Part shown: positions 2,315-48,103 of the stretch, in pieces | How the letters are laid out: the number at the start of each line of letters is the position of its first letter | Position numbering within the stretch: the first letter of the stretch is position 1 | Source: Gemmatimonadota bacterium | GTDB taxonomy: Bacteria; Gemmatimonadota; Gemmatimonadetes; Gemmatimonadales; GWC2-71-9 | Assembly (NCBI GenBank): GCA_022710485.1 | Contig: JAKLGU010000001.1 | Coordinates: 124,001 to 188,000, forward strand | Direction: 5' to 3' | DNA length: 64,000 nucleotides | Translations under genes and position numbers: made by a program | The notes under the pieces: generated by a model | Told to the model about the DNA's origin: nothing | Databases searched by the model: none | The model's input: only the letters and a program-made list of their open reading frames with translations

Positions 2315-3425
2315 ACAGGACGAATCCGCCACCGAGCAACAGCGCCACCACCGCGGCGGCCGACAGCGCGACCTGGAAGATGAGCCGCCGGAGGATGGCG
2401 GCCGACCGGTCGAGGGTCCGTACCGTCACGCTGTCGATGGACAGGAAGGCGGCGATCCGCTCCTCCCGAACCTGCCGCATCAGCACCTCCCGCTCCAGGT
2501 TCAGCGCGGCCTCCAGGGCCACCCGCTGGTCCGCCACCGCCTCGAACGCCAAGACCCGCTGCCGGTCGACGTCGCGCATCAGCGCCTCGCGCCACCCGTC
2601 GAGAAACGCCGGGAACCCGTCGGCGAACGTGCCCACCGAGCCAAGCGACGTGCTCACGGTACCGACGAGCGAGTCGACGGCTGGAGCGCGCAGCGCCTCT
2701 CCCCCCGCGAGTTCGGCGTTCCACCGGGCCTGCGCGGCCAGCGTCTCGTTCAGGTAGCTCAGCCGGTAAGTGACGTTCACCAGCGTGCGCTCCATGTTGC
2801 CGACGCTGGCCGCGAGCGAATTGTCGCTGAGGCCAAGCGCCTTCCAGTCGGAACTGAGGAAGGAGGCGCGGCGGAGCGCCGGGCCCTGCATCGGATGCTC
2901 CGCGGCCCAGGCCCGGAGGTGGGCCTCGGAATTCGCCGACAGCTGGCCGCTCCGGAGGTTGCCCGACACCAGGTCGAGGGCCGCCTGTTCCGCCGCCGCC
3001 GCCGCCGCGACCGCGACCGGCTGCCCGGCGCCGAATGAGGTCTTCCCCGCGCCGATCTCGACGTAGTCCGAGAACTGGATCGTGAAGGCGTACAGGTCGG
3101 CGGCGGCGATCACCGGATCGATCCGCAGCGCCGCCTCCTGCACCAGCGGGATGGCCGAGATCTTCAGCAGCAGGGCATTGCGCCGGACGTCGACGTCGGT
3201 GGATGCCGCCTGGATGCTGTCCGCGGCTGACTCGATCAACGTGGAGATGGCGCGCCCCGTCTCGAACGCCTGGAGCTGGATCAAGGCGGCCGAACTCGAC
3301 ACCTCGGGGGCGGCCTGCATGCTGGCCGACTGCGTCGGCACCTTGGCGCAGGCACCCGCCAGCAGGGCGAGGGCGGAGAGGAGGGCCAGGCGGCGTGCGG
3401 TGGGGCGGGACAGGGAGAGGTTCAT
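2262..3425 (-). CDS. Lipoprotein with C-terminal membrane helix, function unknown
   Basis: The 387-residue product starts with a basic N-terminus and hydrophobic stretch ending in the lipobox LAGAC (Cys about 26), so it should be lipidated and exported. The middle is largely helical and alanine-rich, with long heptad-like stretches (for example RQRVLAFEAVADQRVALEAALNLEREVL) that could form coiled coils. Near the C-terminus there is a strong hydrophobic segment (about 350-372) followed by FSRWR, an inner-membrane anchor. Lipid plus transmembrane anchoring in one protein is unusual. No domain was recognised. The gene converges on rdgB with a 53-bp overlap and is divergent from the lipoprotein at 3547. 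Confidence 0.75.
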   Translation of the reverse strand: MNLSLSRPTARRLALLSALALLAGACAKVPTQSASMQAAPEVSSSAALIQLQAFETGRAISTLIESAADSIQAASTDVDVRRNALLLKISAIPLVQEAALRIDPVIAAADLYAFTIQFSDYVEIGAGKTSFGAGQPVAVAAAAAAEQAALDLVSGNLRSGQLSANSEAHLRAWAAEHPMQGPALRRASFLSSDWKALGLSDNSLAASVGNMERTLVNVTYRLSYLNETLAAQARWNAELAGGEALRAPAVDSLVGTVSTSLGSVGTFADGFPAFLDGWREALMRDVDRQRVLAFEAVADQRVALEAALNLEREVLMRQVREERIAAFLSIDSVTVRTLDRSAAILRRLIFQVALSAAAVVALLLGGGFVLFSRWRAASLQRAPSGAP

Positions 3426-5733: not shown

Positions 5734-6996
5734 TCACACTCCACCCGCCGGTTGATCCTGCATGAAGAAGCCGCGCTTCTCGAACACCCGGGGCGACAGT
5801 CCGCGACCGCCGGCGCGCAGCGTCCGCTTCAGGACGAAATCGAAGAGGAGGGGATTGTGGTCGCGGATGGCCGCCAGCGGGCCGGCGGCCGACGGCTCGA
5901 GCAGGCCCTCCGCGGCCAGCTGGTCCGGCGAGAAGAGCGGCAGGATGCCCGGCAGGGGATAGTCCGAGCCGTTCACCAGGCGGCCTTCCCAATCGCCTCC
6001 CGCGGATCCACGCTCGATGATCCGCCGCAGCGCCTCCCCGGCCCGCGCCCGCTGCGTCACCGCCGAGAGGTCTCCGTAGAGGCGCCCGGCGTGCGCGGGC
6101 AAGTCCATCAGCCGCGCGAAGAGCAGAAAGTTGTCGGTCCACGGGCCGTGCGGGCCCGCGTCGAGGTCGCGCCCCCGGCCCATCGTGGCGCAGTGCGCCA
6201 CGACCACCCGCACCCCGTGCTCCAGCGCGCGGCGGAGCCGGAGGGGATTGCCCAGCGACTGCTCACCGGTCAGGGCGCGCTCCTCGCCGGCGTGGGAAAT
6301 CAGCGGGAGGCCGAGTCTCGCAAGCGCCTCGTAGTAGAAGTCGCAACGCGGCGCGCCGGGGTCGATGCCCTGCGCGGCGGGAATCCACTTGACCGCCCGC
6401 GCGCCCAGCCGGTGCACCCGCTCCAGCTCGGCGACGGCGTCGGGGCGGTAGGGGTGGACAGAGGCGGCCCACTCGAACCTTGAGGGATTGGCGGCGGCCG
6501 CGCGGGCGCAGTAGTCGTTGGCCACGTACAGCTGGGTCGCGCCGTCCTGCCGGACGCCCTCGGCGTCGTGATAGGCGTCGAACGCCAGGAGGAGCATGCG
6601 GAAGCCGGCGGGGAATGGTGTCGCGAGGGACTCGAGCCGCGCGAGGTACTCGGCGCCCGCCCCGGTGCCCGGTTCGAGGCAGGCGGCATTCAGGAAGACC
6701 CGGCGCTGGGTCTCGGCCACCGGCCACCGCCAGGTGCCGGCACGGTCGCTGAACCAGGCCTCGGAGTCGGGGCCGCCGTCGCCGAAGAGGTGGACGTGGG
6801 AATCCCAGATCAGCGCCGGATCCACGCCGTCCCATGCCTCCCGCACGAGCGGGTGCCCCGCGAGTGCATCGGGGAGTGGCCCCAGGCAGGGGTTGATGAG
6901 CCCGGGCGAGCGCAGGACGCGCCAGGCCAGGACACCGGCCACCCCGGCAATGCCGGCCAGTCCGGCCATGGCGAGGAAGCGGCGACGGGATGTCAT
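5734..6996 (-). CDS. Amidohydrolase-family metal-dependent hydrolase with N-terminal anchor
   Basis: From ATG 6996 the protein begins MTSRRRFLAMAGLAGIAG, a twin-arginine-like export signal or membrane anchor. The rest fits the amidohydrolase-2 TIM barrel: WDSHVHLFGD (metal-binding HxH), VKWIPAAQGIDP, ISHAGEE, VVAHCATMGRG and NGSDYP, whose aspartate usually closes the metal site. Such enzymes hydrolyse or decarboxylate cyclic and carboxylated substrates; the substrate here is unknown. Its stop lies 4 nt before the acyltransferase start, so the two form an operon. An upstream in-frame extension was rejected because the Tat-like motif should be N-terminal. Confidence 0.75.
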   Translation of the reverse strand: MTSRRRFLAMAGLAGIAGVAGVLAWRVLRSPGLINPCLGPLPDALAGHPLVREAWDGVDPALIWDSHVHLFGDGGPDSEAWFSDRAGTWRWPVAETQRRVFLNAACLEPGTGAGAEYLARLESLATPFPAGFRMLLLAFDAYHDAEGVRQDGATQLYVANDYCARAAAANPSRFEWAASVHPYRPDAVAELERVHRLGARAVKWIPAAQGIDPGAPRCDFYYEALARLGLPLISHAGEERALTGEQSLGNPLRLRRALEHGVRVVVAHCATMGRGRDLDAGPHGPWTDNFLLFARLMDLPAHAGRLYGDLSAVTQRARAGEALRRIIERGSAGGDWEGRLVNGSDYPLPGILPLFSPDQLAAEGLLEPSAAGPLAAIRDHNPLLFDFVLKRTLRAGGRGLSPRVFEKRGFFMQDQPAGGV

Positions 6997-22189: not shown

Positions 22190-23784
22190 CTGCGACCTAC
22201 CGCGTGCTGATCGCCGACAAGATCGCGGCCGACGGGCTGGCCCCGCTGCGCGAGGACCCGCGCTTCGAGCTGATCACGAAGCCTGGCCTGAGCCTGGCCG
22301 ACCTGACCCAGGCGCTCACCGAGGTGGACGCCGTCATCGTCCGGAGCGCCGCCAAGGTGCCCCGGGAGGCGATGTCCGCCACCACGCGCCTCAAGGTCAT
22401 CGGGCGCGCCGGCGTCGGCGTCGACACGATCGACGTGGACGCCGCGACCGAGAAGGGCATCGCGGTGCTCAACGCGCCGGCCGGGAACACGATCTCCGCC
22501 GCCGAGCTCACCATGGCGCTGATGCTCTCCCTGGCGCGGCGCGTCGCCGCCGCCGACCGCTCCATGAAGGCGGGGGCCTGGGACCGCGCCAAGCTGGGCG
22601 GCAGCGAACTGTACGGCAAGACGCTCGGCCTGGTGGGGGCCGGCCGGATCGGCGGCGAGGTGGCCACCCGTGCCCGCGCCTTCGGCATGCGCGTGGTGAT
22701 CCACGACCCGTACCTGCATCCCGATCGCGCCAAGTCGCTGGGCGCCGAGCTCGGCACGCTCGACCAGGTCCTGGCCGAGGCCGACGTCCTCTCGGTGCAC
22801 GTGCCGCTCACCGACGGCACCACCGGCCTCATCGGCGCGGCGCAGCTCGCCCGGCTCAAGAAATCGGCCTTCGTGCTCAACGTGGCGCGCGGGGAGATCA
22901 TCGACGAGGCGGCGCTGATCGAGGCGCTCCGCGCCGGATCCATCGCGGGCGCGGGCCTCGACGTCTACAACGTCGAGCCGCTGCCGGCCGACCATCCCTT
23001 CCGCACGCTGGAAAACGCGGTGCTCACGCCGCACCTGGGCGCCTCCACCGAAGAGGCCCAGCAGAACGTCGCCCTCGAAATCTCGGCGGCGGTGCGCGCG
23101 GCGCTCCTCGAGGGAGACCTGAGCCGCGCGGTCAACGCCCCCGGCGTAGGCGGGGAGCGGATGCGCCGGCTGAAGCCGCTGCTCGACCTGGCCGAGCGGC
23201 TGGGGCGCATCGGCGCCGCGCTGGCCGGCGCGCGCCTCAAGACCGTCCAGGTGCGGTACGCCGGGCGTGAAGAGGACGGGCTCGGGCCGATCGCCGCCGC
23301 TGCCCTGATCGGGGTGCTCTCGGAGGTGGTGGGCCAGCGCGCCGTCAACGTCGTCAACGCCATGCACCTGGCCACGGGGCGGGGCATCGCCGTCGAGCGC
23401 ACCCGCCTGACGCCGCGGGACGACTACGCCGAGTACCTCGAGGTTCGGCTGACGGGCGAGGAGGAGAGCATCCGGGTGGGAGGCGCGGTGCTGGAAGGGG
23501 CGCACCCTCGCGTGGTGCGAATCGGCGACTACCACGTGGACATCCTCCCCCGCGGCGACCTGGTCCTGCTCCGGAACCGCGACGTGCCGGGCGTCATCGG
23601 GCGTGTCGGCACCGCGCTCGCGGCCGCCGGGATCAACATTGGCCAGTACAACGTCGCGCGGCTCGAGGCCGGCGGTCAGGCGCTGGCCGCCATCGGCGTG
23701 GATGCCCGGCTGAGCCCGGAGCATATGGAAACGTTGCGGGCGTTGCCCGAAGTCACCGCCGTCCGGCAGGTGGAGCTCGACTAG
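22186..23784 (+). CDS. serA: D-3-phosphoglycerate dehydrogenase
   Basis: The 532-residue protein is the long, type 1 form. It has a D-2-hydroxyacid dehydrogenase domain (GRAGVGVDTIDVDAATEKGI, the NAD site GLVGAGRIGGEVATRARAFG, NVARGEIIDE, GLDVYNVEP, LTPHLGASTEEAQ). An intervening ASB domain and a C-terminal ACT domain follow (LVLLRNRDVPGVIGRVGTALAAAGINIGQYNVAR). It oxidises 3-phosphoglycerate to 3-phosphohydroxypyruvate, the first step of serine synthesis. The ACT domain suggests feedback control by serine. ATG 22186 overlaps the aminotransferase stop. Confidence 0.97.
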   Translation: MTATYRVLIADKIAADGLAPLREDPRFELITKPGLSLADLTQALTEVDAVIVRSAAKVPREAMSATTRLKVIGRAGVGVDTIDVDAATEKGIAVLNAPAGNTISAAELTMALMLSLARRVAAADRSMKAGAWDRAKLGGSELYGKTLGLVGAGRIGGEVATRARAFGMRVVIHDPYLHPDRAKSLGAELGTLDQVLAEADVLSVHVPLTDGTTGLIGAAQLARLKKSAFVLNVARGEIIDEAALIEALRAGSIAGAGLDVYNVEPLPADHPFRTLENAVLTPHLGASTEEAQQNVALEISAAVRAALLEGDLSRAVNAPGVGGERMRRLKPLLDLAERLGRIGAALAGARLKTVQVRYAGREEDGLGPIAAAALIGVLSEVVGQRAVNVVNAMHLATGRGIAVERTRLTPRDDYAEYLEVRLTGEEESIRVGGAVLEGAHPRVVRIGDYHVDILPRGDLVLLRNRDVPGVIGRVGTALAAAGINIGQYNVARLEAGGQALAAIGVDARLSPEHMETLRALPEVTAVRQVELD

Positions 23785-23863
23785 GGACGCCCTTGCGGCA
23801 ATGGGCTCCGGCTGGGACATTTCCGAAGCACCAACGTCCCCTCCTGTCCAGTCCGGAGCATCC

Positions 23864-25381
23864 TTGCCGCGAGTTCTGCATCTGCTGGTCCTGGCCTTGG
23901 CCGCTGCGATCCCGGCCCAGGCTCAAGAGCCACGACTCGGCACTATCGATTTCCCCACCTCAGCCGCGCCGGCCGCCCAGGCCGCGTTTGTCCGCGGCGT
24001 ACTTTACCTCCACAGCTTCGAGTATGCATCGGCCGCCGCGGCGTTCCAGGAGGCCCAGCGGCTCGAGCCGGGCTTTGCCCTTGCGTACTGGGGCGAGGCG
24101 ATGACCCTCAACCACCCGGTCTGGAACGAGCAGAACCGGGCCGGCGCCCAGGCCGTCCTTGGCCGGCTGGCCCCCACACCGGAGGCGCGGCAGGCCCGCG
24201 CCACCACCGACCGCGAACGCCGCTTCCTCGCCGCCGTGGAGCAGCTCTACGGCGACTCCGGCTCCAAGCCACGGCGGGACACGCTCTACGCCCGCTCGAT
24301 GGAGGCGCTCGCGGCGGCCTATCCCCACGACGCCGAGACCCAGGCATTCTATGCCCTCGCGCTGCTCGGCCTCAGCCAGGGGAACCGGGTCGTGCCGACC
24401 TACATGCGTGCGGGGGCCATTTCGCTCGCACTCATGCAGCAGTATCCCGACCACCCGGGGGCCGCGCACTACACCATCCACTCCTTCGACGACCCGGACC
24501 ACGCCATCATCGGTCTGCCGGCCGCGCGCGCCTACTCGCAGATCGCGCCCGCCGCGCCGCACGCGCAGCACATGACGACCCACATCTTCCTGGCGCTGGG
24601 GATGTGGAACGAGGTGGTGAGCCAGAACGTGATCGCGGCCGGCCCGAACCCGGCCGCCTGGCGGCCCGGGCATTACACCGAATGGCTGCACTACGGGCTG
24701 CTGCAGCTCGGGCGCTTCGCGGACGCCGATTCCCTCTACCGGCGCACGCTCGGGAACATCGGGACGACCCCCAGCGCAGGGCGGACCAGTTCGGCGCTCA
24801 TGATGCACGCGGCGCAGGTCATCAACGCGGAGGAGTGGTCCGGCCCCCTGATCGCGCTTCGGCCCGCGTCGGTGAACGGGTCCCGCGGGGCCCGTGCGGC
24901 CGACGCGTTCGCGATCGGGTACGCCGCGCTCCAGCGGGGCGATCAGGCCGCCGCCGCCGCGGAGGGGGCGCGACTCCGTGCCATCGTCGCCGAAACGGGC
25001 GCGCCCGGGGACGAAACGCAATCCGGCACGGTGCACGCACTCGACATCGCCCTGGCCGCGGCGTCGGCGTTCCACGACGGCCAGGTCGAAACGGCGCTCC
25101 GCCTCATCCGCGAGGCCGCCGCCAGCGAGGACGCGCTGGCGGTGGAATTCGGGCCGCCGACCGTGGTCAAGCCGACGAACGAATTGCTCGGTGAGATGCT
25201 GCTGGCCATGGGGCGGCCCGCAGAAGCCCAGGAGGCCTTCACGCAGGCCCTCGCCCAGTACCCGCAGCGGCTTCTCTCGCTGCGCGGCCTCGCCACCGCG
25301 GCGCGCGCGGCGGGGGATGTGGAGGTCGCGGTGAGGGCGGAAGGCCAGTTGCCCCCAGGCACGCGGCAGGGCGGGGAATGA
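23864..25381 (+). CDS. Secreted TPR-repeat protein
   Basis: TTG 23864 has GGAG 5 nt upstream and directly opens a signal peptide (PRVLHLLVLALAAAIPAQAQ); ATG 23801 would add 21 non-signal residues. The mature 485 residues contain repeated helix pairs, such as YASAAAAFQEAQRLEPGFALAYWGEAM, MEALAAAYPHDAETQAFYALALL and GRPAEAQEAFTQALAQYP. HYTIHSFDDPDHAIIGLPAARAYSQIAPAAPHAQHMTTH is rich in histidine and conserved-looking, so metal or ligand binding is possible. The last codons overlap the kinase start by 4 bp. With the kinase and multicopper oxidase it forms a three-gene operon. Confidence 0.8.
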   Translation: MPRVLHLLVLALAAAIPAQAQEPRLGTIDFPTSAAPAAQAAFVRGVLYLHSFEYASAAAAFQEAQRLEPGFALAYWGEAMTLNHPVWNEQNRAGAQAVLGRLAPTPEARQARATTDRERRFLAAVEQLYGDSGSKPRRDTLYARSMEALAAAYPHDAETQAFYALALLGLSQGNRVVPTYMRAGAISLALMQQYPDHPGAAHYTIHSFDDPDHAIIGLPAARAYSQIAPAAPHAQHMTTHIFLALGMWNEVVSQNVIAAGPNPAAWRPGHYTEWLHYGLLQLGRFADADSLYRRTLGNIGTTPSAGRTSSALMMHAAQVINAEEWSGPLIALRPASVNGSRGARAADAFAIGYAALQRGDQAAAAAEGARLRAIVAETGAPGDETQSGTVHALDIALAAASAFHDGQVETALRLIREAAASEDALAVEFGPPTVVKPTNELLGEMLLAMGRPAEAQEAFTQALAQYPQRLLSLRGLATAARAAGDVEVAVRAEGQLPPGTRQGGE

Positions 25382-45609: not shown

Positions 45610-46321
45610 GCGCGTCCTGGTCGTCATCCCGACCTACAACGAGATCAAGAACCTCTCGCAGATCGTCCCGGAAGCCCTGCGGCAGGACCCCCGCATCGAG
45701 GTCCTTGTGGTGGACGACGGCTCGCCCGACGGGACGGGGGCGCTCGCCGACCGGATGGGGGAGGAAGATCCCCGCATCCATTGCCTGCACCGGACGGCCA
45801 AGGAGGGCCTGGGCAAGGCGTACCTCGCCGGGTTCCGCTGGGCGCTGGAGCGGGACTACGACTTCATCTTCGAGATGGACGCCGACTTCTCGCACGACCC
45901 GAAGTACCTGCCGACCTTCCTGGGGGCCATCGAGGACGCCGACGTCGTCATCGGGTCGCGGTACAAGACGGGGGTGAACGTCATCAACTGGCCGATGAGC
46001 CGGCTGCTGCTGTCGTATGGAGCCAACCTTTACGCCCACTGGATTACCGGACTGCCGCTCACCGACTCCACGGGCGGCTTCAAGTGCTTTCGCAGGGAGG
46101 TTCTCGCGACACTTGAACTCGACCGGGTCCGCTCCAATGGCTACTCCTTCCAGATCGAGATGAGCTTCCGGGCCTGGAAGCGCGGCTTCCGGCTCAAGGA
46201 GATCCCCATCGTCTTCGTGGACCGGGTGGAGGGGCAGAGCAAGATGAACAAGCGGATCGTCCGGGAAGCCATCTGGATGGTCTGGTGGCTTCGGCTGCGT
46301 TCCATGGTGGGGAAGCTGTGA
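45602..46321 (+). CDS. Dpm1-type polyprenyl-phosphate mannosyltransferase
   Basis: The 239-residue GT2 enzyme without a membrane domain reads VLVVIPTYNEIKNLSQIV, VLVVDDGSPDGTGALADRM, GLGKAYLAGFRWALERDYDFIFEMDADFSHDPKYL and GSRYKTGVNVINWPMSRLLLSYGANLYA. STGGFKCFRREVL completes the pattern of dolichyl/polyprenyl-phosphate mannose synthases. It probably provides a lipid-linked hexose to the YfhO-like enzyme encoded just upstream, with which it overlaps by 8 bp. GTG is the start codon. Confidence 0.92.
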   Translation: MAERVLVVIPTYNEIKNLSQIVPEALRQDPRIEVLVVDDGSPDGTGALADRMGEEDPRIHCLHRTAKEGLGKAYLAGFRWALERDYDFIFEMDADFSHDPKYLPTFLGAIEDADVVIGSRYKTGVNVINWPMSRLLLSYGANLYAHWITGLPLTDSTGGFKCFRREVLATLELDRVRSNGYSFQIEMSFRAWKRGFRLKEIPIVFVDRVEGQSKMNKRIVREAIWMVWWLRLRSMVGKL

Positions 46322-47142
46322 GCGGCGCCAGCTTCTACAAGATGTCCGGCTCGGGCAACGACTTCGTCATGCTCGACGGGCGCCAGACCACTCCCGCCGA
46401 CTGGCCGGCGGAGCGAATCCGGGCGGTCTGCGACCGGCGGGACGGGGTCGGGGCGGACGGCCTCCTCATCCTGACGCCGGAGGCCCCGGGGACCGTCCGG
46501 ATGACCTTCTGGAACTGCGACGGGAGCCCCGCCAACATGTGCGGGAACGCCGCCCTCTGCAGCACCCGCCTGGCCACCCACCTGAAGATGGTACCCACGG
46601 CAGGGATGACCCTCGCCACGGGCGCAGGGCCGTTCCCGACCCGCTGCGTGGGCGACGGAGACCTGGCGGAGCTCAACCTGCCCGACTTCGACCTCCCGGC
46701 GGAGGTGCCGGGCATGGCCTTGGCCCCCGGCGAGCTGTGGATCCGGAAGGCCGTGGTGGGGGTCGAACACCTGGTAACGCGGGTGGCCGACCTGGAGGGG
46801 TTCGACCTCCCGGCCCGTGGGCGGGAGCAGCGCTTCCACCCGGCCATCGCCCCGAAGGGGGCCAACGCCAACTTCGTGGGGCAGCCCGACACCCCCGGCG
46901 GGCCGTGGCGGATCCGGACCTACGAGCGTGGGGTCGAAGGAGAGACACTGGCCTGCGGCACCGGGACGGTGGCGGCCGCCGTGGCCCTGGCCGCCCTTGG
47001 CGAGGCCAGCTTGCCGATGACGCTCCTCTCCCGAAGCGGCCGCGAGCTGACGGTGAGGGCCACAGTGGAGGGGGGCAGGGCCGTCGATGTCTGGCTCCGG
47101 GGTGAAGCCCGGCTGGTCTTCACCGGAGTTCTGGGGTCCTAG
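46318..47142 (+). CDS. dapF: Diaminopimelate epimerase
   Basis: DapF interconverts LL- and meso-diaminopimelate for lysine and peptidoglycan. The 274-residue protein has FYKMSGSGNDFVMLDG, the first catalytic cysteine in NMCGNAALC and the second in LACGTGTVAAAVA. The two symmetric halves and length are standard. GTG 46318 overlaps the glycosyltransferase stop. It is the last gene of the long envelope operon, just left of the AT-rich gap containing dif. Confidence 0.96.
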   Translation: MSGASFYKMSGSGNDFVMLDGRQTTPADWPAERIRAVCDRRDGVGADGLLILTPEAPGTVRMTFWNCDGSPANMCGNAALCSTRLATHLKMVPTAGMTLATGAGPFPTRCVGDGDLAELNLPDFDLPAEVPGMALAPGELWIRKAVVGVEHLVTRVADLEGFDLPARGREQRFHPAIAPKGANANFVGQPDTPGGPWRIRTYERGVEGETLACGTGTVAAAVALAALGEASLPMTLLSRSGRELTVRATVEGGRAVDVWLRGEARLVFTGVLGS

Positions 47143-47238: not shown

Positions 47239-47257
47239 TTCTCCACAGTTATCCACC
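47239..47257 (+). other. Two DnaA-box-like 9-mers in tandem
   Basis: TTCTCCACA (47239-47247) and TTATCCACC (47249-47257) each match the DnaA consensus TTATCCACA at 8 of 9 positions, one base apart. They lie 6 bp left of the dif-like site. No dnaA, dnaN or parAB gene is nearby, so an origin is unlikely. Confidence 0.4.
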
Positions 47258-47262
47258 AAGGT

Positions 47263-47290
47263 ACTTAACATAACATATCTTATACGTCGT
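47263..47290 (-). other. dif: dif-like chromosome dimer resolution site (XerC/XerD)
   Basis: Read on the minus strand, the 28 bp consist of an XerC-type arm ACGACGTATAA, a 6-bp centre GATATG and an XerD-type arm TTATGTTAAGT. The XerD arm matches E. coli dif at 10 of 11 positions. The inner seven bases of the XerC arm (CGTATAA against CGCATAA) match at 6 of 7. Overall 19 of 28 positions agree. The site lies in an AT-rich gap between two convergent genes, exactly where long plus- and minus-strand gene blocks meet. XerCD act here to resolve chromosome dimers at division. Confidence 0.75.
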
Positions 47291-47369: not shown

Positions 47370-48056
47370 CTACTTCGCCAGCGTCATCCTGCCCTGCGTG
47401 AACTCCGCCAGCCGGACCCTCGCCTCGGTCAGCGCGGTCGTCTTGGGGTACTTGTCGATGATCGCCTGGAGCGCCTTGACCGCCTCGTCCACCTTGCCGG
47501 CATTGCCATACGCCCGGGCCGCCGACAACAGGTATTGGGCCTTCAAGTAGTCCACCTCGGCATCCTCGGCGGCGCCCACGTAGGCCGCCCCGGCCTCCTC
47601 GGGCCGGCCAGCGTTCTCCAGCGCCTCGCCCAGGAGCCCCTGCGCCGGCACCTTGTAGACCTTCTTCGGGTTGGTCTTCAGGTACTCCTGCAGGCTGACC
47701 ACGGCGAGCTCGCTCTGCCCGTTGACCATGCGGACCTGATTCAGGGTGACCACCGCCTCCGTCGCGGCGTCCGTCCCGCTGAAGGTCTCGATGATCTTCT
47801 GCAGCTCGCTGGCGGCCAGCGGCAGGTTGCCCGATTCGGCGATGTTCCGGGCCTGGTCGAGCGCCTCCGCCGCGCGGAGCTGCCTGCGCTGGCCCGTCTC
47901 CGTGACGACCCAGGCGCCCAGCGCGAGGACCACCACCGCCCCGGCGATGCCGAGGACGAGCCTCTGGTGCTTGCGCACCCAGATCATGGGGTCGGCCACT
48001 TCGGCTGCGACGGTGGGCTGCTGTGTCTTCTTCGGTGGTACGGTCGGTGAGGACAT
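47370..48056 (-). CDS. YfgM-like membrane-anchored TPR protein
   Basis: The 228-residue product from ATG 48056 has a short cytoplasmic N-terminus, one transmembrane helix (about 32-54: LVLGIAGAVVVLALGAWVV) and a periplasmic helical-repeat domain. The repeats include LPLAASELQKIIETFSG, SELAVVSLQEYLKTNPKKV and KVDEAVKALQAIIDKYPKTTALTEARVRLAEF. The layout matches the YfgM/TPR_21 family, ancillary to the SecYEG translocon. In many genomes yfgM sits next to der; here der is about 5 kb upstream on the same strand, separated by other genes. An upstream extension running into tRNA-Arg was rejected. Confidence 0.8.
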   Translation of the reverse strand: MSSPTVPPKKTQQPTVAAEVADPMIWVRKHQRLVLGIAGAVVVLALGAWVVTETGQRRQLRAAEALDQARNIAESGNLPLAASELQKIIETFSGTDAATEAVVTLNQVRMVNGQSELAVVSLQEYLKTNPKKVYKVPAQGLLGEALENAGRPEEAGAAYVGAAEDAEVDYLKAQYLLSAARAYGNAGKVDEAVKALQAIIDKYPKTTALTEARVRLAEFTQGRMTLAK

Positions 48057-48103
48057 GGGTCTCCGGTACTGGCCAGTGAAAACAGGTTCGATGCGCACGC
48101 AGG

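Follow-up and report, generated by a model that had tools for sequence, protein, structure and literature searches.

Conserved DnaA-box-like sites adjoin the chromosomal dif site of Gemmatimonadota

XerC and XerD bind the two arms of dif, and on the arrival of FtsK first XerD and then XerC exchange strands, which converts a chromosome dimer to monomers. To our knowledge, descriptions of the chromosomal dif site name XerC, XerD and FtsK as its sole requirements. The motif GGGNAGGG is the FtsK guide motif of E. coli. The locus analyzed here lies in a 64,000-nucleotide stretch of a Gemmatimonadota genome (the window) and resembles the chromosomal dif/XerCD/FtsK systems already described (Carnoy and Roten, 2009, PMC2731167; Kono, 2011, PMC3025954) in having a single-copy, 28-bp site with two arms, in the convergence of polarity on that site and in the accompanying XerC, XerD and FtsK gamma domain. 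It differs from them in its conserved DnaA-box-like sites, which lie beside dif at a fixed spacing; no DnaA-box-like site was found within about 300 bp of E. coli dif. For the only Gemmatimonadetes genome then available, a dif site had already been predicted (Kono, 2011), and the occurrence of dif in Gemmatimonadetes is no new finding.

Xer sites with accessory sequences are found on plasmids, cer with ArgR and PepA and psi with ArcA and PepA (review PMC5357621). An Xer core with a flanking protein-binding element is common to these sites and to the present locus, where binding is predicted. Here, however, the site is chromosomal and its two 9-bp boxes, of the DnaA type, lie no more than 24 bp from the arm, whereas in the plasmid sites the accessory DNA spans approximately 180 bp. 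The DnaA-box-like sites here also compare with the boxes that datA, DARS1 and DARS2 carry outside the origin (PMC4585315), but in the present case the spacing is locked to a terminus recombination site and only one or two boxes are involved. A literature search that covered subscription journals in part retrieved no report of DnaA boxes adjoining dif, and conserved DnaA-box-like sites beside dif are, as far as we found in the literature searched, new.

The preliminary description of this DNA called a dif site at window positions 47263-47290 (28-mer ACTTAACATAACATATCTTATACGTCGT; reverse complement, ACGACGTATAAGATATGTTATGTTAAGT) from its likeness to E. coli dif, given as 19 of 28 positions overall and 10 of 11 in the XerD arm. 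Both counts were reproduced with ACGACGTATAAGATATGTTATGTTAAGT, and nothing on either strand of the 634-kb contig matched E. coli dif at more than these 19 positions (runner-up, 17). The top match in simulated 64-kb sequences was 15-17 in 39 of 40 and 19 in the other, so likeness to E. coli dif is by itself weak evidence. At the level of sequence, the identity of the site was decided by comparison with relatives, including a matrix built from relatives outside the genus, which gave 56 bits at dif and -4 bits at the second-best place on the contig. At up to three mismatches the site is single-copy in the 2.53-Mb assembly (incomplete, about 80%), and the search for a better dif-like site that the preliminary description had proposed as a check yielded none on the 634-kb contig by either measure. 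With up to three mismatches allowed, 147 of 250 genomes from the order contain the core TTAACATAACATATCTTATACG, almost always in one copy, and a reversed-control version had zero matches in the same 250 genomes. Among the sites of the order the arms are constant, with TTNACATAA of the XerD arm almost unchanging in the site alignments, and the central hexamer changes (CATATC, CATCTA, TACATC, and CATGTA); this combination is the signature of an Xer site. The two 11-bp arms around a variable 6-bp centre by which dif is recognized are thus all present. Two copies of dif, often at contig ends, were seen in assemblies G038, G101, G205, G127, G133, G142, and G192, which could reflect an element integrated at dif, a mixture of strains or an assembly artefact.

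The proteins that act on dif are encoded in the genome. XerD (346.5 bits; cut-off, 329.6) is encoded 75 kb from dif and XerC (319 bits, slightly below the cut-off of 335) on a different contig, so that both recombinases, which the preliminary description had asked to be located, are present; an FtsK with the gamma domain is also encoded. The orientation of GGGNAGGG is directed to dif from either flank (214 motifs on the 634-kb contig). The best change-point in GGGNAGGG polarity, at contig positions 171072-172598, brackets dif at contig positions 171263-171290, placing the switch no more than 1.5 kb from dif, with a log-likelihood ratio of 24, whereas none of 1000 permutations gave more than 11. 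In two complete relatives with dnaA at the start of the record (G043 and G058), dif lies 42% and 45% of the way round. The sharp polarity switch and these positions support the claim that the window spans the replication terminus. In G021, a one-contig assembly, dif lies just 26% from dnaA, suggesting that the replication arms may be unequal. Open reading frames on one strand run into dif from each side, a layout that agrees with the figures given earlier for the converging gene stretches (about 19 kb on the left and about 10 kb on the right). An extreme of GC skew had also been expected at dif, its absence there to count as refuting the call, and here the outcome was divided. In skew computed from sampled genome stretches, the extremes of the contig itself fell at 49 kb and 586 kb rather than at 171 kb, the skew there being too weak to show where the terminus lies, but in G058 it was positive directly before dif and negative after it. 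Single copy, conservation of the arms, GGGNAGGG polarity, position in relatives and the presence of XerC, XerD and FtsK gamma all support the original call, and the sequence at 47263-47290 is almost certainly dif.

The features of the locus are compiled in Table 1. As originally described, dif lies between two convergent genes, dapF and a gene called YfgM-like in the preliminary description and here assigned to a TPR protein; the first scored above the DapF cut-off and the match of the second, to YbgF/BamD, was weak. The AT-rich gap between these genes had been explained by dif. The site is indeed there, but this account of the gap is incomplete, as it also contains a conserved element that resembles a DnaA box and is linked to dif.

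Table 1. Positions in the window of dif, the adjoining 9-mers and the flanking genes.
Feature	Position	Strand	Remarks
dapF, diaminopimelate epimerase	46285..47142	+	TIGR00652, 172 bits (cut-off 115); end toward dif; start codon uncertain
Distal DnaA-box-like 9-mer, TTCTCCACA	47239..47247	+	Start 26 bp before TTAACATAA; kept at -26/-27 in relatives
Proximal DnaA-box-like 9-mer, TTATCCACC	47249..47257	+	10 bp nearer dif than the distal 9-mer
dif, 28 bp	47263..47290	-	XerC arm ACGACGTATAA, centre GATATG, XerD arm TTATGTTAAGT, read on the - strand
XerD-binding arm of dif	47263..47273	-	TTATGTTAAGT; 10/11 against E. coli
Central region of dif, 6 bp	47274..47279	.	CATATC on the + strand; variable among relatives, unlike the arms
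XerC-binding arm of dif	47280..47290	-	TTATACG kept on the + strand in relatives
TPR periplasmic protein, YbgF/BamD-like (weak, below family cut-offs)	47370..48068	-	End toward dif; start codon uncertain

The first DNA comparison with relatives revealed that conservation extends beyond dif on the XerD side, where a pair of 9-mers spaced 10 bp apart makes up the sequence TTCTCCACA-G-TTATCCACC (47239-47257). The tandem TCCACANTTNTCCAC has one occurrence in the whole genome, at dif, and TTNTCCACA is scarce (4 in 634 kb); the pattern TTNTCCAC is too unspecific for genome-wide counting. Compared with the DnaA box TTWTNCACA, TTCTCCACA departs at the third base and TTATCCACC at the ninth, and exact TTATCCACA and TTTTCCACA occur at the position of the dif box in some relatives. 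With one site taken per genus and at most one mismatch, the distal 9-mer was present at -26/-27 in 49 of 54 genera and the proximal 9-mer in 21, and 53 genera had a box in at least one of the two places. The other 256 combinations of offset and strand gave a mean of 0.05 and a maximum of 2 of the 54 genera with a box. Across 106 sites, the box columns held approximately 0.9-2 bits except at a free third base, while the spacer was mostly near random and the outer flanks were near random. A composite pattern of box and dif, with 11 gap lengths allowed, was found in 140 of 371 genomes of the phylum and had no control match; among the matches listed, all but one had a gap of 17 or 18. We are highly confident that the boxes and their spacing are under selection together with dif.

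The order dapF-dif-TPR is conserved in families f1-f3, and shared ancestry of the gap had therefore to be weighed. The eight sites read in family f7 have the box at an unchanged distance with neither dapF nor the TPR gene detected nearby, which ties the box to dif and not to these genes. The XerD-side box was absent at dif of family f6, in which 9 of 30 sites had a box in inverted orientation, TGTGGANAA, on the XerC side at a distance of 13-15 bp past TTATNCG, in some cases as a tandem. Family f10 had dif in 19 of 22 genomes, and none of these 19 sites had a XerD-side box. Box-free dif sites in f10, in part of f6 and in E. coli indicate that the boxes are not required for dif generally, and the variation of the box-to-arm distance by lineage means that no single geometry holds.

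A single form of the element, in which TTATG lies on the XerC side and the boxes lie on the XerD side, was scanned in 84,980 genomes and gave 31 stretches, most of them isolated or repeats from one metagenome-assembled genome (MAG); in the form scanned, the element is not general among bacteria. The sole coherent group outside Gemmatimonadota among the 31 matches was Peregrinibacteria and relatives. Here a palindromic Xer site, TTAACATAA-N6-TTATGTTAA, is flanked on either side, at 12-13 bp, by boxes of the TTWTCCACA type, and a xer gene adjoins it where examined. Box-flanked palindromic Xer-like sites were located at L263 (~6398-6464), L276 (~1783-1848), L271 (~245-311), L259 (~3289-3353), and L258 (~2839-2903); the XerC/D-family gene beside a Peregrinibacteria-type site was tested in L263 and, in L276 and L259, recognized from sequence similarity. 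One Chitinivibrionia MAG (L264, L269, L270, L274, L275, L280, and L283) had a box and a dif-like sequence at many contig ends, probably the ends of a repeated element. Single genomes labelled Kapabacteria, Bacteroidetes and Margulisbacteria also had a dif-like site with a DnaA box next to it (L279, L286, and L285), with identical spacing in L279 and L286 (gap 20) and a gap of 18 in L285.

The protein that binds the dif-side boxes is probably DnaA, which is favoured because the motif is DnaA-box-like, the same motif lies upstream of dnaA and the DnaA protein is normal. Either TTTTCCACA or TTATCCACA was found upstream of dnaA in four of the five genomes in which it was located, TTTTCCACA being the one in this genome, whose DnaA carries a normal DNA-binding domain. 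No oriC was located, the dnaA regions showing isolated boxes only. The third base of the box at dif is C or G in 31 of 49 cases as against A or T upstream of dnaA, and the affinity of DnaA may thus be low or the binder different. In the latter case dif would be real and another protein would read the TTNTCCACA-like box as a lineage-specific fork-trap terminator or terminus organizer, in a role like that of Tus, RTP or MatP. The location of the box at the terminus, its one-sided orientation in f1-f3 and f7 and the divergent third base are in keeping with such a protein, but the motif equals the DnaA box at 8 of 9 positions, tandem boxes one turn apart fit DnaA and the same factor would be needed in Peregrinibacteria, whose Xer sites carry the same motif; we consider a binder of this kind unlikely. 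Another DnaA-like protein, which has two AAA+ domains of the DnaA type and apparently no DNA-binding domain, the NCBIfam matches ending before it, was considered as the binder and set aside. It was located at L031 (70-1992, - strand), L032 (1489-3267, + strand) and G000:C41 (~23426-25015), and a second match of this kind was present in all eight Gemmatimonadota genomes searched; in L031 and L032 its gene adjoins a small GTPase gene, of MglA type as judged by eye.

DnaA might also occupy the boxes with no effect on Xer recombination, the boxes acting as reservoir or reactivation sites like datA or DARS whose location at the terminus is incidental. In E. coli, box clusters located outside oriC are known to regulate DnaA (PMC4585315), but titration needs no spacing from the XerD arm that is fixed within 1 bp across 54 genera, and just one or two boxes are present, making this explanation improbable. 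Still less probable is a plain dif beside a box that is a relic of a slowly changing intergenic region or a regulator of dapF or the TPR gene. The gene order kept in f1-f3 agrees with this, but the box is conserved between a spacer and outer flanks that are near random, the two genes point toward each other, a search for a promoter-like site gave none, and the f7 sites, with the box in place away from any detected dapF or TPR neighbour, strongly disfavour it. That the element is a replication origin, which DnaA boxes next to AT-rich DNA resemble, is scarcely credible given that polarity converges on it and does not diverge, that it lies 42-45% from dnaA in the two complete relatives and that the AT-rich DNA belongs to an Xer site under constraint.

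The reading we prefer is that dif here has an accessory site to which DnaA probably binds and which would modulate Xer recombination; it has a better than even chance of being correct. In this reading dif is the chromosome-dimer resolution site at which the polarity of the FtsK guide motif converges, forming a composite element with one or two tandem boxes at a fixed distance on the XerD side. The 10 bp between boxes corresponds to one helical turn, so that proteins bound there would lie on the same side of the helix, adjacent to XerD. DnaA bound at the boxes, on the side where XerD is met by FtsK, could then modulate recombination, serving XerCD as an accessory factor or as a gate, for example by keeping XerD inactive until FtsK translocates through from the box side or by helping two dif sites to pair until FtsK does so. 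An effect of the boxes on Xer recombination is, taken by itself, a tentative proposal. Somewhat short of an even chance, too, is given to the broader proposal that DnaA beside dif at a fixed helical phase directly controls XerCD, an arrangement that would have evolved at least twice (in Gemmatimonadota and Peregrinibacteria) and switched sides within Gemmatimonadota.

Conservation of a DnaA-type site at a set distance from dif across 54 genera would imply that dimer resolution in some bacteria involves one more protein and, if the proposal is true, dimer resolution would be tied to the replication cycle. The arrangement would offer a testable link between the initiation of replication and the last step of chromosome segregation, and the conserved boxes adjacent to dif hint at an undescribed connection between the start and the finish of chromosome replication.
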